Source: Bacteroidales bacterium
Lineage (GTDB): Bacteria > Bacteroidota > Bacteroidia > Bacteroidales > VadinHA17
Direction of reading: 5' to 3'
Length of the DNA stretch: 62,397 nucleotides
Assembly: GCA_003141895.1 (NCBI GenBank)
Contig: PLNT01000034.1
Location: forward strand, 50,315-112,711
Shown: piece by piece, positions 9,472-48,859 of the stretch
Layout of the letters: each line of letters opens with the position of its first letter
Numbering within the stretch: the stretch's first letter is position 1
Position numbers and translations under genes: made by a program
Notes under the pieces: generated by a model
Databases searched by the model: none
Told to the model about the DNA's origin: nothing
What the model saw: only the letters and a program-made list of their open reading frames with translations

Positions 9472-9552
9472 TTACCCCCTTCCCAACCTTCCCCCAAGGG
9501 GGAAGGAGCAGTATAAACTTTTCCCCCTTGGGGGAAATAAGAAAGGGGGTAA
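9472..9552 (+). repeat. 81-bp three-stem repeat, copy A
   Basis: First of three 81-bp copies in the same orientation (others at 42184 and 48779). A 10-bp outer stem TTACCCCCTT / AAGGGGGTAA encloses a hairpin CCTTCCCCC-AA-GGGGGAAGG, a 13-base variable linker, and a second hairpin TTTCCCCC-TT-GGGGGAAA. Stems are conserved; linker and loop bases vary. It sits just upstream of the PhzF gene and creates a false upstream extension of that reading frame. Confidence 0.93.
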
Positions 9553-10943: not shown

Positions 10944-11062
10944 CACACCCCCTGCCGCTGCGCGGCTGCCCCCCTAAAGGGGGGCTAAAACTGTTCTTTT
11001 AATGAATTACATATAATATGTAAAAGTATTAAGCCCCTCCTTGGGGGAGGTTGGGGGGTGTG
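10944..11062. repeat. 119-bp G/C-tract hairpin repeat between ridA-like and D-TA genes
   Basis: Ends form an outer stem CACACCCCC / GGGGGTGTG. Inside are the hairpins GCCGC-TGC-GCGGC and CCCCCC-TAAA-GGGGGG, an AT-rich middle, and a second G/C hairpin around CCTCCTTGGGGGAGG. The build (outer stem plus inner hairpins) parallels the 81-bp family but the sequence is a different family, related to the insert at 43896-44005. Confidence 0.85.
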
Positions 11063-27733: not shown

Positions 27734-30115
27734 TCAGAATTTTATCCCAACCTTAAACATATAATTGATGCCTGCCTGCGGAAAATAACCGTCCAGAATG
27801 TGAGTCGATCCTCCTTCATCATATTTGTAAACCCAGGCATTTGTTTCGTATTTGGTGTCAAATAAGTTATTTACGGCAAACTGACATGTCAGTTCTTTAA
27901 ATAATTTACTTTTTATAGTGTAAAGAAAAGATATATTCTGAAGAAAATAGGCATTTAACATCCTGTCATTGTTCTGAGTGTTATCAATGTATTGTTTCCC
28001 TATATATTTGGAATTCAAAATTACATGAAAATCAGTGAATGGATAGTAATCAATAACTGAGGCAGCAATTACAGATGGTGAAAATGAGATTGTTTTATTC
28101 TTTAATGTCTCCTGATCCTGTATCGAAGTATCCCAGTTATCGGTATAATCTATAAAAACCGGAATAATGTTTCTGCTCAGAGTCATGTTGGCATTCCAGT
28201 TTAAGTTTTTAAGTACCTGTAAACCTGTTTCAAACTCAATTCCTTGCCTGTAGCTTTTTGTCACATTTGTGTATATCGCAGATCCCACATTGTTTATTCT
28301 TCCTGTTAAAATTAATTGATCTTTGTAGTCCATATAGTATAAATTCACCTTGAACATTATCCCTGATGAGTGATATTCATAAGCAGTCTCGTAATCAAAT
28401 AATTTTTCCGGAACAGGTGATTTTCCAGGATCTGCATCGGTAAAATCACTTCGTACAGGTTCCCTTTGAGAAACTCCAAATGAAGCATACAGTTTTTGGT
28501 TTTTATTAAAGTTATAAGTAAAACCCGCTTTTGGATTAAAGAAGTTATACCTGTGATTTTGCGTCACATCTTTGAGATTCTCATCAAACCCACCGATTAA
28601 ATAATCTATTTTCCGGAATTGCATATCTCCATACAGATTTAATTTCTCTGAAAACGAATAGTTTACTTTCAGAAAGGTATTTAAATCCTTTTTATTTCCG
28701 GTGCCCTGGTACCACCGGAAGCTTTCACCACTGAACGTAACAATTTTAGCCCAGATTATATCCCCAAAATGATTTCCAATATATTGGTTCCATCCGCCTC
28801 CAATTACGGCATTAACTTTATTTTTTGTGTAATTCAATGAATAGGTAAAGCCATAAAAGTCATTTCGAAGCCAACGCTGTGTTATAAAATCAGAAGTACT
28901 GATGGTGTCTGAATTAATAATTGCATTGGGTAAATTAAATGAACTGTAATTGGTACCGGGTACAAGGTTTTCATAATAGCCTTTGCCCCTGGTATAATGT
29001 AAAGCAGCATTGGCACTGAAATCACTGCTGATTACTTTTGAGTAATGGAGCTGATAATTATCCTGCCAGTAATTATCTGTTTCATTTTTATAAGAATATG
29101 CATTATAAGTTCTGTGTGTTTTAAGAGAATCTTTGGGGACTCCGTTCCATGCCTGATAGGTATGTTCGACCCCTGAAAAAATAATTAATTTCAGGATGCT
29201 TGTTTCCCCGTAAAGTGTACCTGATATATAGAAAGATTTTAAATCACTAAAGGCCCGGTCGATATATCCGTCAGACCAGATTTTAGAAAACCTGCCATCA
29301 ACAGCAAACTTCTTATTTATTAATCCTGTACCAAAGTTAACTGTGTTTTTTGAAGTATTAAAGGATCCATATGAGGAGTTGACCTCTGCATATGGATCTT
29401 TCCTCAGATCAGAAGTCTGAAAATTTATTGTAGCACCGAAAGCCCCAGCACCATTGGTTGAGGTACCTACCCCCCTCTGTATCTGAATGTTATCAGCAGA
29501 AGATGCAAGATCAGGCATATCGACCCACCACACTCCATGGGATTCAGCATCATTAACGGGAATTCCGTCAACTGTTACATTGATCCTGTTTACATCGGTT
29601 CCTCTTATGTTTATATATGTGTATCCCACTCCCGTTCCGGCATCGGAAGATACCACAAGTGATGGAGTATAGCCCAACAGGTAAGGAACATCCTGAGCAA
29701 TATTAGCTTTCGAAATATCATCTTTTGTAACGGTTGAGTATGCCATTGGTGTATGTTCACCTGCCCTTGTTGAATTAACAAGAACCTCCTCTGTCATAAA
29801 TGACTTTGATAAAAGTGTTACGTTCAAAACAGTATCGGCTTTCAGACTGACATTTCTGATTTCCGATTCATAGCCGATAAACGAGAAATGGATTATATAA
29901 TTTCCTTCCCTGAAAACCTGTAATGCAAAATTTCCGTCCTGATCACTATGAACTCCAAGAATTGAATTTTCAACAGTAATACTTGTGCCCGTTAATGGCG
30001 ACCCGTTTATATCAGTCACTATACCTCTAAGAACCAAACCATTTTCCTGATATGCTTTAGCCTGGATAACGGAGTGGAGTAAGACAAAAACAATAAAACA
30101 AAATGTTTTCCTCAT
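27734..30115 (-). CDS. TonB-dependent receptor for thiamine
   Basis: A 793-residue outer-membrane active transporter. After a signal peptide (to about residue 20, QAKA) comes a carboxypeptidase-like regulatory extension (LVLRGIVTDINGSPLTGTSI), then the plug (about 130-230; YTYINIRGTDVNRINVTVDG) and a 22-strand barrel ending in a terminal aromatic strand (MFKVGIKF). It lies directly behind a TPP riboswitch and before PnuT and thiamine pyrophosphokinase, so it is assigned to thiamine uptake, as in other Bacteroidetes thiamine operons. Its start codon is predicted to be held in a hairpin (30110-30153). Confidence 0.93.
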   Translation of the reverse strand: MRKTFCFIVFVLLHSVIQAKAYQENGLVLRGIVTDINGSPLTGTSITVENSILGVHSDQDGNFALQVFREGNYIIHFSFIGYESEIRNVSLKADTVLNVTLLSKSFMTEEVLVNSTRAGEHTPMAYSTVTKDDISKANIAQDVPYLLGYTPSLVVSSDAGTGVGYTYINIRGTDVNRINVTVDGIPVNDAESHGVWWVDMPDLASSADNIQIQRGVGTSTNGAGAFGATINFQTSDLRKDPYAEVNSSYGSFNTSKNTVNFGTGLINKKFAVDGRFSKIWSDGYIDRAFSDLKSFYISGTLYGETSILKLIIFSGVEHTYQAWNGVPKDSLKTHRTYNAYSYKNETDNYWQDNYQLHYSKVISSDFSANAALHYTRGKGYYENLVPGTNYSSFNLPNAIINSDTISTSDFITQRWLRNDFYGFTYSLNYTKNKVNAVIGGGWNQYIGNHFGDIIWAKIVTFSGESFRWYQGTGNKKDLNTFLKVNYSFSEKLNLYGDMQFRKIDYLIGGFDENLKDVTQNHRYNFFNPKAGFTYNFNKNQKLYASFGVSQREPVRSDFTDADPGKSPVPEKLFDYETAYEYHSSGIMFKVNLYYMDYKDQLILTGRINNVGSAIYTNVTKSYRQGIEFETGLQVLKNLNWNANMTLSRNIIPVFIDYTDNWDTSIQDQETLKNKTISFSPSVIAASVIDYYPFTDFHVILNSKYIGKQYIDNTQNNDRMLNAYFLQNISFLYTIKSKLFKELTCQFAVNNLFDTKYETNAWVYKYDEGGSTHILDGYFPQAGINYMFKVGIKF

Positions 30116-30153: not shown

Positions 30154-30186
30154 TTGTTATGATTTGCTGATTTGTATGATACTCTT

Positions 30187-30263
30187 TCTTCCCTCCGCCG
30201 GCATTATCCGGATCAGGTTTAAGGGTATGATCTCAGCCCGTAATTGTAAGGCACCCCATTCAT
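30187..30263 (-). promoter_or_regulatory. TPP riboswitch (thi box)
   Basis: Read on the minus strand, the conserved elements appear in order: GGGGTGCC, GGGCTGAGATCATACCC, AACCTGATCCGGATAATGCC and GGCGGAGGGAA. These are the highly conserved P2-P5 segments of the thiamine pyrophosphate aptamer. It lies 71 bases upstream of the TonB receptor gene and presumably shuts the thiamine uptake operon down when TPP is plentiful. Confidence 0.96.
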
Positions 30264-30271
30264 TGATATGT

Positions 30272-31203: not shown

Positions 31204-31225
31204 AACCAAATAACCTCTCCCTAAA

Positions 31226-31247
31226 TCCCTCCGCCAGGGGGGAGGGA
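31226..31247. repeat. Left hairpin flanking the DUF559 gene
   Basis: TCCCTCC (31226-31232) pairs with GGAGGGA (31241-31247) around GCCAGGGG. It lies 16 bases before the DUF559 start codon. Together with the right hairpin (31656-31681) it brackets the gene; outer parts CCTCTCCCT on the left and GGGGGTGAGG on the right are partly complementary. Confidence 0.75.
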
Positions 31248-31262
31248 CTTAAATTCAGCGTT

Positions 31263-31694
31263 ATGGCCAATCTTGGAAAATCAATTGAACGTGAAATGTA
31301 CTTTGGAGCCAAACCTGACCTATTTGAACTGGCCAAAGAAATGCGTAAGAATCCAACTGAAACTGAAAGAATTTTATGGAATATATTAAGAAAATACAGA
31401 AAAAAGGGATTTCTTTTTAGTCAGCAACATCCAATTTATATTTTTATTGCCGATTTTTATTGCCATAAAATAAAATTGGTTATTGAAGTTGATGGTGCGG
31501 TTCATTTCAACGCTGAATCGCTGGAGCATGATGACGGACGTTCAGGCGTTATGGAAAATTTTGGAATAACAGTCATAAGATTCACTAACGATCAGGTTCT
31601 TTACAATCAAGCTACAGTCATAACGCATATTAATGAGGTTATGTTAAAACTAACATCCCCCGCCCTCCTGGGGGCGGGGGACAGGAGGGGGTGA
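31263..31694 (+). CDS. DUF559-domain putative endonuclease in a repeat cassette
   Basis: A 143-residue protein with the DUF559 domain, a Vsr/PD-(D/E)xK-like fold. Visible landmarks are the helical N-part EMRKNPTETERILWNILR, then FIADFYCHKIKLVIEVDGAVH, with the aspartate and glutamate of the likely metal site, and a late GITVIRFTNDQVL. Family members are poorly characterised and are thought to be nucleases. The gene is flanked on both sides by G/C-tract hairpins, and its last codons (LTSPALLGAGDRRG) are encoded by the right-hand repeat. That layout recalls REP-associated transposase units and suggests a mobile or formerly mobile cassette. No activity is known. Confidence 0.8.
   Translation: MANLGKSIEREMYFGAKPDLFELAKEMRKNPTETERILWNILRKYRKKGFLFSQQHPIYIFIADFYCHKIKLVIEVDGAVHFNAESLEHDDGRSGVMENFGITVIRFTNDQVLYNQATVITHINEVMLKLTSPALLGAGDRRG
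31656..31681. repeat. Right hairpin flanking and overlapping the DUF559 gene end
   Basis: TCCCCCGCCC (31656-31665) pairs perfectly with GGGCGGGGGA (31672-31681) around TCCTGG. It encodes the C-terminus of the DUF559 protein. It is followed by AGGAGGGGGTGAGG and by three copies of GTGAGGC up to 31756. Confidence 0.85.
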
Positions 31695-31779
31695 GGCAAA
31701 ATTCATGGGGACGGGTTAAAGGAGATGTGAGGCAAATAAACATGAGAAGGTGAGGCTATAAACTTATATACTACTCTAT

Positions 31780-42183: not shown

Positions 42184-42264
42184 TTACCCCCTTCCCAACC
42201 TTCCCCCAAGGGGGAAGGAGCAAAACCACCATTTCCCCCGTGGGGGAAATAAGAAAGGGGGTAA
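42184..42264 (+). repeat. 81-bp three-stem repeat, copy B
   Basis: Same length, orientation and stems as copies A (9472) and C (48779). The 13-base linker reads AGCAAAACCACCA and the second hairpin loop is GT rather than TT, while the stem bases are unchanged. Confidence 0.93.
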
Positions 42265-43868: not shown

Positions 43869-45485
43869 CTAAATTAAAAATTTAAATCTCTTAAACACCC
43901 CCTCCCGCTTCGCGGGGTCCCCCTGAAGGAAGACAAAATCTGATAATTTAAATGAATTAATTAAAAGATTGAGATTTAACCCCCCTTTAGGGGGGCAGGG
44001 GGGCTCTTGAAAATAAGTTAATTCTTTTTGATTATTCAATGTCTTCAAAATAGCTGGTTTTGCAGCATCGATCACAGGTTTCGGAAACAATCCGAGCCAT
44101 ACAATTGCTATAACCAGTAAAGCAGATACCACCTTTTCCCTGAGATTCAGATCATTCATTTTCCAATCAGTGTTTTTGCTTCCCAGGAACACCTTCTGAA
44201 CAATCCTTAGCGAATATATTGTAGCAGCAATAAGTCCAAGACTTGCCAGACAGGACATCAGAATGTTTGCTTTGAAAGCGCCGATAAGTATCAGAAGTTC
44301 AGCTATAAAATTACCTAAACCGGGTAATCCTAATGATGCCATGGAAAAAATGAGACCGATAGCGCCCATAACAGGAACTTTTTCCCACAGACCTCCCATC
44401 TTATTCAGATCGCGGGTATGAACACGCTCATATAGTTGCCCGACCAGTACAAATAATGCTCCGGTACTGATCCCATGTGCTATCATCTGAACCACAACAC
44501 CCTGATAAGCAAGTTCATTAAATGAAAATACACCCAGAATTACAAATCCCATATGACTGACACTGGTATAAGCAACAAGACGTTTCAGATCAGTCTGTGC
44601 GAAGGCCAGTTTAGCACCATATAATATACCCACAACACCAAGGAGCATACCAACAGGAGCAAATGTAACCGCTTCTGAAGGAAATAAAGGAACAATAAAC
44701 CGCAAAAGACCATATGCACCAGTCTTCAACAGTAAAGCCGCCAGGATGAGGCTTCCAGCAGTTGGAGCTTCAGTGTGAGCATCGGGTAACCAGTTATGTA
44801 AAGGAACAACAGGTAATTTAACAAGAAAAGCAGCAAGAAAGCCCAGCATTATAAGGAACCCGGTTGACTCAGGCATCTCAGTGCCCAGAAGCTGCATATA
44901 ATCAAAAGTGTAAACCCCGGTATACTTTCCGTGCACAAAATATAAAGTTATAATAGCAATGAACATCAGAAGTCCGCTTGCCTGGGTATAAAGAAAGAAT
45001 TTATTCGATGCAGCAGTTCTGTTCTCATGTCCCCAGATACCAATAAGGAAATACATCGGGACAAGCATCAGTTCCCAGAAAAAATAAAATAAAAACAGAT
45101 CAAGAGAAAGGAAAACTCCTGTGATTCCTGCTAAAATGAGGAGAAGATTGAAATGAAAGAATCCGACCCGGGAATCTATTTCTTTCCAGGAAATTATGAC
45201 AGAGATTATCCCAAGAAAAAAAGTCAGAAAGAGCATTACAAGACTGAGTCCGTCAAGTGCAAAGTGAAGGCTGATACCGAAAGCAGGAATCCAGTCAAGT
45301 TTAATATTAATCAACCATCCATTATCCGGTACAACAGACTGGTTAACATTTAAAATAAGCAGAATAAGATCAACCGATAATGCTATCAGTGAAATAAACC
45401 TTGCCCATCGGGGGTTCCGTTTTCCGGTAATCCACGCGAGAAAAGCGGCTGAAAGCAATACTATAATCAGGTAAACAAGTATCAT
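43869..45485 (-). CDS. nuoM: NADH:quinone oxidoreductase subunit M, with repeat-encoded C-terminus
   Basis: Membrane proton-pumping subunit of 538 residues, about 14 helices. The core motifs are present: WELMLVPMYFLIGIWG with the key glutamate, VPLHNWLPDAHTEAP and RLVAYTSVSHMGFVILG. The C-terminal 45 residues (from about YFQEPPCPPKGGLN onward) are encoded by a G/C-tract repeat of about 110 bases (43896-44005) and are not expected from family members. The insertion keeps the frame open and ends 2 bases before nuoN, so the protein is probably still made, with an odd polar tail. Its start overlaps the nuoL stop by 4 bases. Confidence 0.92.
   Translation of the reverse strand: MILVYLIIVLLSAAFLAWITGKRNPRWARFISLIALSVDLILLILNVNQSVVPDNGWLINIKLDWIPAFGISLHFALDGLSLVMLFLTFFLGIISVIISWKEIDSRVGFFHFNLLLILAGITGVFLSLDLFLFYFFWELMLVPMYFLIGIWGHENRTAASNKFFLYTQASGLLMFIAIITLYFVHGKYTGVYTFDYMQLLGTEMPESTGFLIMLGFLAAFLVKLPVVPLHNWLPDAHTEAPTAGSLILAALLLKTGAYGLLRFIVPLFPSEAVTFAPVGMLLGVVGILYGAKLAFAQTDLKRLVAYTSVSHMGFVILGVFSFNELAYQGVVVQMIAHGISTGALFVLVGQLYERVHTRDLNKMGGLWEKVPVMGAIGLIFSMASLGLPGLGNFIAELLILIGAFKANILMSCLASLGLIAATIYSLRIVQKVFLGSKNTDWKMNDLNLREKVVSALLVIAIVWLGLFPKPVIDAAKPAILKTLNNQKELTYFQEPPCPPKGGLNLNLLINSFKLSDFVFLQGDPAKREGVFKRFKFLI
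43896..44005. repeat. G/C-tract hairpin repeat inside the 3' end of nuoM
   Basis: About 110 bases. The outer word CACCCCCT faces AGGGGGGCT, with inner hairpins around CCCGCTTCGCGGGG and CCCCCCTTTAGGGGGG and an AT-rich middle. It belongs with the element at 10944 by architecture and similar words. It lies inside the nuoM reading frame and supplies its C-terminus. Confidence 0.85.
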
Positions 45486-48778: not shown

Positions 48779-48859
48779 TTACCCCCTTCCCTACCTTCCC
48801 CCACGGGGGAAGGAGTAAGTCAATCTTTTCCCCCTTGGGGGAAATAAGAAAGGGGGTAA
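48779..48859 (+). repeat. 81-bp three-stem repeat, copy C, between nuoH and nuoI
   Basis: Third 81-bp copy, same orientation on the plus strand as copies A and B. The linker reads AGTAAGTCAATCT and the first hairpin loop is AC. It interrupts the otherwise tight nuo operon, in the gap between nuoH and nuoI, and would form stems in the nuo mRNA. Confidence 0.93.

Follow-up and report, generated by a model that had tools for sequence, protein, structure and literature searches.

The window analysed here is a stretch of 62,397 nucleotides from a Bacteroidales genome and contains, on the forward strand, a DUF559 gene (31263..31694) for a protein of 143 amino acids. The encoded protein is a putative PD-(D/E)XK, Vsr-like endonuclease, judging by a 100-bit match to PF04480, residue conservation and a structure model; this agrees with a preliminary description made from the sequence alone, which had favoured an endonuclease over a Y1 transposase. 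The gene is bracketed, as that description had also proposed, by two hairpins, at 31227-31246 and 31656-31681. Both ends are C-tract/G-tract structures. The left one (31214..31246, +) opens with the C-rich third block CCTCTCCCTAAA, continues with the hairpin, and is similar to the end at L003, which belongs to the same DUF559 subfamily. The right one (31656-31696, +) consists of the hairpin TCCCCCGCCCTCCTGGGGGCGGGGGA (31656..31681), delimited from the sequence and the alignment of homologues, and a G-rich third block, CAGGAGGGGGTGAGG (31682..31696), that contains the stop codon TGA. Part of the C-terminus is therefore repeat-encoded: the right hairpin together with its G-rich tail supplies the final codons (..TSPALLGAGDRRG / ..SPALLGAGDRRG) and the stop codon, bearing out what had been read from the sequence, and an ending akin to that of the window protein is present in most of 30 aligned homologues, picked from 120 listed among the 945 found. 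Downstream, the right-end tail (..GTGAGG) recurs, by eye, as two direct copies in a decayed state (31707..31756, +), and similar tails are present at L008, L090 and L106. Pyrimidine-purine hairpins number nine in the window, a count that omits the gene's own left hairpin, which falls below the script threshold, compared with one hairpin of the opposite polarity and a mean of 0.05 in 20 base-pair shuffles. Assignment of the repeats to a known Rfam family was rejected, as the only match above threshold in a scan of the window is a TPP riboswitch; this riboswitch (56.4 bits; 30173-30268, -) lies upstream of a receptor-like gene at 27734-30115. A PADLOC defence system was likewise rejected, with two weak matches per protein.

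The residues of the window protein that resemble an active site are E35, Q55, D64, E75, D77 and H81, and across 131 aligned domains E35, D64 and H81 are found in 131/131, Q55 and E75 in 130/131 and D77 in 129/131, so that DUF559 domains keep the acidic active-site residues of PD-(D/E)XK nucleases. The structure model (mean pLDDT 78) is nearest to 3hrl, an endonuclease-like Neisseria gonorrhoeae protein, and then to the homing endonuclease I-Bth0305I; the Vsr-like fold of the EDxHD homing endonucleases is recovered both by profile (3r3p, E 0.0012) and by structure comparison (Foldseek E 8.8e-5), with Vsr itself (1vsr) a weaker structural match (Foldseek E 0.075). NCBIfam offers only a DUF559 model, matched below its cut-off (64 of 218 bits).

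Gene-less elements are present, all on the forward strand, at the six further sites of the window where they had been described, and they fall into two types of three. The first is a 77-bp family (ACCCCCTTCCC..two hairpins..GGGGGT) with copies at 9474..9550, 42186..42262 and 48781..48857; its ends are those of L001 (G000:C34), another DUF559 gene in the same genome that belongs to a different subfamily from the window gene. The second type (ACACCCCC..GGGGGGTGTG) is found at 10945..11062 and 43895..44004 and, by eye, as a decayed copy that starts at about 62275 and is truncated by the window edge (62397). A PF04480 search identified six DUF559 genes in the source genome, all six flanked on both sides by hairpins of several types (by eye), and none of the six is a cognate of the second gene-less type, again by eye. 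Ends akin to those of the elements at 10945-11062 and 43895-44004 flank, by eye, the DUF559 genes at L070 and L083. The earlier suggestion of coding and non-coding copies with matching ends thus holds for the genome, where the L001 type has both, but not for the window gene, whose own ends are not those of the gene-less copies around it.

The exact L001-type left end occurs 46 times in the source genome, one of them at its DUF559 gene, and 45 of these, representing 44 loci (one with two ends), were inspected. All 45 copies start with ACCCCC and all 37 readable right ends are GGGGGT; 36 of these 37 copies measure 73-78 bp and the remaining one 108 bp, while the other eight comprise the coding copy L001 and altered or differently shaped copies. 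Gene-less copies occupy 43 of the 44 loci, in flanks that are mostly unrelated. There is a bias towards T before the element (35/45) and A after it (30/37), and no target-site duplication, as would mark a MITE derived from a DDE insertion sequence, was seen by eye across the 45 copies. Four 77-bp elements (L213, L219, L222 and the one at 42186 in the window) are alike past their ends, and in these cases the copied unit may have been longer.

Empty sites were found in relatives, the gene-less elements of the window being absent from the syntenic gaps. The 9474 element is missing in all four inspected relatives that have both neighbours (G005, G019, G026, G031), and also beside the downstream gene in G006 and G034, which have a different upstream neighbour; G034 retains a hairpin remnant some 200 bases upstream of the equivalent site. 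In the gap that corresponds to 10945, the element is missing in six of the seven relatives inspected, and the seventh, G034, has a reversed L001-type element instead.

The association between gene and hairpins extends well beyond this genome. PF04480 is present in 78 of 146 related genomes, and 109 further DUF559 loci were taken from relatives; they were selected by score and in some cases by ORF length, which makes the sample non-random. The first 95 loci contain 96 domain hits, of which 81 are stand-alone and have sufficient flank; strong hairpins lie on both sides of 61 of these 81, compared with none of 47 control ORFs taken from these loci, and on both sides of three of the four long fused DUF559 ORFs. 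A stricter test, limited to pyrimidine-purine hairpins in a 300-nt window, could be applied to 97 of 110 DUF559 loci and 17 of 18 RAYTs of the same order, and found two-sided hairpins at 54/97 DUF559 genes, 0/59 control ORFs and 0/17 RAYTs. Homologues that lack flanking hairpins, which the preliminary description had held to speak against its proposal, do exist beside the many two-sided ones: 43 of the 97 fail the pyrimidine-purine test and 20 of the 81 stand-alone hits fail the plain one. A mirrored third block accompanies 49% of the pyrimidine-purine hairpins in the order and 68% in the named records from other phyla discussed below, versus 17.5% and 17% after flank shuffling. Since a strict three-block test yields both ends at only 19/97 loci in the order (9/20 in the named records), we rely on the hairpins and give the third block as an enrichment, and one that is not special to DUF559, being as frequent at the few pyrimidine-purine hairpins near control ORFs (7/12). 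At six loci (L098, L100, L110, L149, L160, L162) the DUF559 gene is adjoined by tandem or nested arrays of hairpin plus third block, which looks as though elements insert beside each other.

In a number of genomes the DUF559 unit is situated in frame within a protein-coding gene: leuS (two sites), recG, metH, hsdR (two sites), hsdM and other methylases, the hosts having been first recognised by eye and then confirmed with Pfam. The entire unit lies in frame at a loop of the editing domain in the leuS genes of G088, G105 and G139, and leuS is uninterrupted in G146 and G148, two relatives of G088. More long ORFs came from 118 sampled genomes of the phylum; 15 of them were fetched, plus a sixteenth (L268) in which DUF559 is joined to an M23 peptidase. 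These ORFs contain the unit at the same leuS loop (L254, L256, L263), at the second leuS site (L260, L261), and in metH (L259, L262), recG (L266, L267), hsdR (L257, L265), hsdM (L258) and methylases (L253, L255, L264); at L098, DUF559 is fused to ispG. Alignment with uninterrupted solved structures brackets the inserts, residues 424 and 574 of the recG product L266 matching 515 and 519 of 1gm5, and residues 293 and 449 of the leuS product L256 matching 236 and 243 of 1h3n. G134 has a copy in each of two genes, hsdR and a DNA methylase gene (L094, L097); the two copies match between ATTCCCCTCC and GGAGGGGAA and diverge beyond these limits. Uninterrupted hsdR homologues are found at L171, L172 and L174, and in G045 the hsdR reading frame is broken by a stop within the left repeat of its DUF559 copy. 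The empty leuS and hsdR sites inspected have no hairpin, from which it follows that the ends arrive there together with the gene. An intein was rejected, because Pfam detects no splicing domain (E 1e-6) in 21 DUF559-containing long ORFs. The palindromic elements of Rickettsia are also inserted in frame within protein genes; unlike the DUF559 unit, they are not known to encode a nuclease.

These insertions bear directly on whether the hairpins could be ordinary terminators or regulatory structures next to a repair nuclease gene, a reading compatible with their presence on both sides of the gene and with the mismatch-repair role proposed for one DUF559 protein (PMC12907096). The hairpins, however, mostly lack a T-run (by eye), lie upstream as well as downstream, also occur without a gene, and are translated inside host proteins, while PIT elements, according to PMC4666352, have neither promoter nor terminator activity. 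In-frame insertion largely refutes this reading, which we hold to be highly improbable.

A more serious rival is homing, in which the nuclease gene would enter fixed sites (hairpin repeats, leuS, recG, metH, hsdR) by cutting empty alleles and being copied into them, in the way of a free-standing homing endonuclease, with gene-less repeats as targets or relics. I-Bth0305I is, after 3hrl, the second closest solved relative, and the same sites do recur: one leuS loop is occupied in six genomes and one hsdR region in three, and the second leuS site, metH and recG are each occupied in two. The gap between cysS and ispG, moreover, holds two DUF559 subfamilies with different ends (L005 and L105 versus L022 and L043). 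On the other hand, recurrence may partly reflect inheritance, the empty leuS and hsdR sites inspected contain no hairpin, and the gene-less L001-type copies are spread over loci with mostly unrelated flanks. Homing as the explanation of the whole system therefore seems unlikely to us, and homing into fixed sites and a REPIN-like spread of the ends may both occur. At the cysS-ispG gap, L005 also retains upstream, by eye, an end of the other subfamily's type.

Repeat excess was measured by counting the pattern CCCCY..RGGGG, with the backwards-read pattern as a control. Across 146 genomes the excess correlates with the number of DUF559 genes (Spearman 0.65), within the genus (rho 0.69, n=62) as well as in the rest of the order (rho 0.49, n=59), and the relation is absent in the other genera of the same family (rho 0.19, p 0.37, n=25); p values are too small throughout, as the genomes are related. 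Partial correlations over the 146 genomes are 0.62 for DUF559 given RAYT and 0.17 for RAYT given DUF559, and in the genomes beyond the genus (n=84) they are similar, at 0.28 and 0.22 respectively. That DUF559 presence would predict repeat number, as the preliminary description had anticipated, is thus supported, the excess following DUF559 number better than RAYT number in the 146-genome set, to which the RAYT comparison is limited. Median observed and control counts in the genus are 387 versus 30 with DUF559 only (n=5), 169 versus 32 with both enzymes (n=43), 96 versus 33 with Y1 only (n=9) and 36 versus 42 with neither (n=5). Repeats are therefore not equally abundant in genomes without DUF559, the outcome that would have counted against the idea, but six of 68 DUF559-less genomes do show an excess above 40, and all six have Y1 genes.

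In a replicate on the phylum sample, with the source genome excluded, the correlation is weaker (rho 0.45, n=117), and the repeat ratio is 0.83 in genomes with no DUF559 gene (n=57), 1.22 with one (n=26), 1.01 with two or three (n=24) and 2.82 with four or more (n=10), where all ten exceed 1.5. Numbers are also type-specific. Among 38 genus members searched, L001-type left ends have a median of 13 in the seven genomes with a sampled L001-type gene versus 0 in the 31 others (p=4e-4), and some of the 31 may hold such a gene themselves, as DUF559 genes were fetched only in part; G011 has 15 ends.

The six DUF559-less genomes with Y1 genes, and the fact that gene-less copies far outnumber coding ones, are what would be expected if another enzyme or process (RAYT/Y1, a DDE transposase, recombination) moved the repeats and DUF559 genes were merely trapped between them. 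Against such a passenger role, the source genome has 678 pattern matches versus 30 in the control and no match at all to PF01797 (Y1), the median is higher in the five DUF559-positive, Y1-negative genomes than in any of the other three classes of the genus, and a passenger is unlikely to be the one gene found between such ends in several phyla. The RAYTs of the same order, in addition, carry repeats that are visibly unlike DUF559 ends. We consider this alternative improbable, more so than homing, and, the transposases surveyed being Y1, a RAYT was rejected as the mobiliser here on the absence of Y1 from the genome, its weaker relation to repeat number and its different repeats. Same-order RAYT genes at L126 (G115), L128, L131 and L140 have their own repeat families, and both systems coexist in one genus.

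RAYTs nevertheless provide a close parallel in layout, each being a single small nuclease gene situated between inverted hairpin repeats, with many gene-less two-hairpin copies (REP/REPIN) in the genome. DUF559 likewise is a small nuclease gene flanked by inverted hairpins that are also found, in many two-hairpin copies, without a gene. The RAYT/REP-like arrangement put forward in the preliminary description thus stands with respect to coding and gene-less copies with matching ends, repeat excess that follows gene number, and unoccupied sites; what differs is the enzyme, a PD-(D/E)XK, Vsr-like PF04480 protein in place of a Y1 HUH tyrosine nuclease, and the two systems coexist in many genomes. 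REP repeats end, according to PMC3733652, in a GTAG or CGTC tag, which the uniform ACCCCC and GGGGGT ends of the 77-bp family do not contain.

To extend the comparison to other phyla, plasmid records were searched with tblastn, which gave 40 records, of which 21 were fetched and 20 analysed (a near-duplicate E. coli record was left out). Pyrimidine-purine hairpins flank the gene on both sides at 14 of these 20 named loci (five cyanobacterial, four Deinococcus, four alphaproteobacterial and one from Neisseria, a betaproteobacterium) and on one side at the remaining six; both gammaproteobacterial loci analysed, from E. coli and Photobacterium, have the hairpin at the right only. Cyanobacterial DUF559 copies often adjoin DUF1156 genes, and one resides inside an ORF of 1,622 codons. 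In Deinococcus the unit occupies differing gaps of the hpa and paa gene clusters, the DNA alignment of the hpa operons being too loose to define exact junctions. On pSymB of Sinorhizobium meliloti (L169), an internally deleted DUF559 unit keeps the gene start and the right end and represents a remnant, not an empty site; no clear element junction was obtained for Shinella (L170), and the Azospirillum and Sphingomonas loci, compared with the plasmid collection, had no empty site among the matches listed.

The E. coli member of the family is ycjD, a DUF559 gene between sapF and fabI, with matches that cover 80% or more of the query in 3361 of 5426 genomes. On the right side of ycjD is CCCCTCTGGGGAGAGGGTTAGGGTGAGGGG, which fits the type A triplex motif (second loop TTA) described in PMC4666352, while its left side has no motif. 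In two E. coli strains without ycjD, one of ST131 and one from cattle, sapF is followed by efflux genes, so that neither provides a clean empty site. According to PMC4666352, the intrastrand triplex motif (TM) is equated with BoxC and PIT and occurs in E. coli, cyanobacteria, Neisseria and others; K-12 has 23 motifs, with five inverted pairs that always combine type A and type B, and the E. coli motif forms a triplex in vitro. The repeats described there share with DUF559 ends a Y-R-R three-block G/C motif, arrangement in inverted pairs, intergenic location and instability between strains, and motifs of this appearance, a pyrimidine-purine hairpin with a mirrored third block, flank DUF559 genes in E. 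coli (right side), N. gonorrhoeae and cyanobacteria. On the basis of this shared architecture, DUF559 ends appear to belong to the same class as the BoxC/PIT triplex repeats. The difference is that this 2015 survey reports no mobility gene near the motifs, whereas DUF559 elements have a nuclease gene between their two ends.

Among nucleases, the EDxHD homing endonucleases, represented by I-Bth0305I, are distant relatives of DUF559 in sequence and fold that also occupy fixed sites in conserved genes, and a DUF559 gene has already been termed EDxHD in PMC9403480; the DUF559 unit differs in that no intron or intein was found, in carrying its own repeat ends and in having gene-less copies. Vsr and Caulobacter VsrA resemble DUF559 in fold (1vsr) and, for VsrA, in the DUF559 domain itself, but both are linked to host repair, and no repeats are mentioned in the passages of PMC12907096 consulted. 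As VsrA is tied to DNA damage, some DUF559 members may have a function for the host. In Legionella, PMC12308824 reports mutation hotspots that are segments with a transposase and DUF559. A literature search returned no link between DUF559 and repeats in the papers listed, though many of its results were off-topic.

Direct observation supports the anatomy of the unit, its association with the hairpins, the type-specific ends, the occupied and unoccupied alleles and the relation to repeat number. It is well supported, and we are confident, that the DUF559 unit is mobile; that its nuclease drives both the unit and its gene-less copies is likely. Taken together, the gene and its two hairpin ends probably constitute one mobile element whose Vsr-like nuclease spreads the element and its gene-less copies. 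Each end tends to consist of three blocks, a pyrimidine arm and a purine arm that would pair as a hairpin, and a mirroring third block of purines or pyrimidines. The nuclease would recognise the folded end, or a matching unoccupied site, and cut one or both strands, and host repair would then copy or join the element into the new site without target duplication; the gene-less copies of 73-78 bp, made of both ends, would be spread in trans by the nuclease, just as RAYTs spread REPINs. How nicks and repair follow one another is a guess, and for cutting plus host repair without target duplication as the route we see roughly an even chance.

DUF559 and BoxC-like repeats were each already known singly. 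The defining enzyme of no known element class is present, and no such element was found in the literature search. We lean slightly towards the broader view that DUF559 elements form a separate self-spreading class, with a single Vsr-like PD-(D/E)XK nuclease acting on triplex-capable ends, that is the source of the bacterial BoxC/PIT/triplex repeats, and of which E. coli ycjD would be a surviving or tamed copy. The DUF559 nuclease is, in any event, a strong candidate for the enzyme that spreads a long-known, unexplained class of bacterial repeats, and the existence of a candidate makes the question directly testable in E. coli and Synechocystis. If correct, this proposal would provide a function for a large family of nucleases that has had none assigned, extend the chemistry of mobile elements beyond that of DDE, HUH, serine and tyrosine enzymes, and account for the insertions found in frame within LeuRS and other essential proteins.
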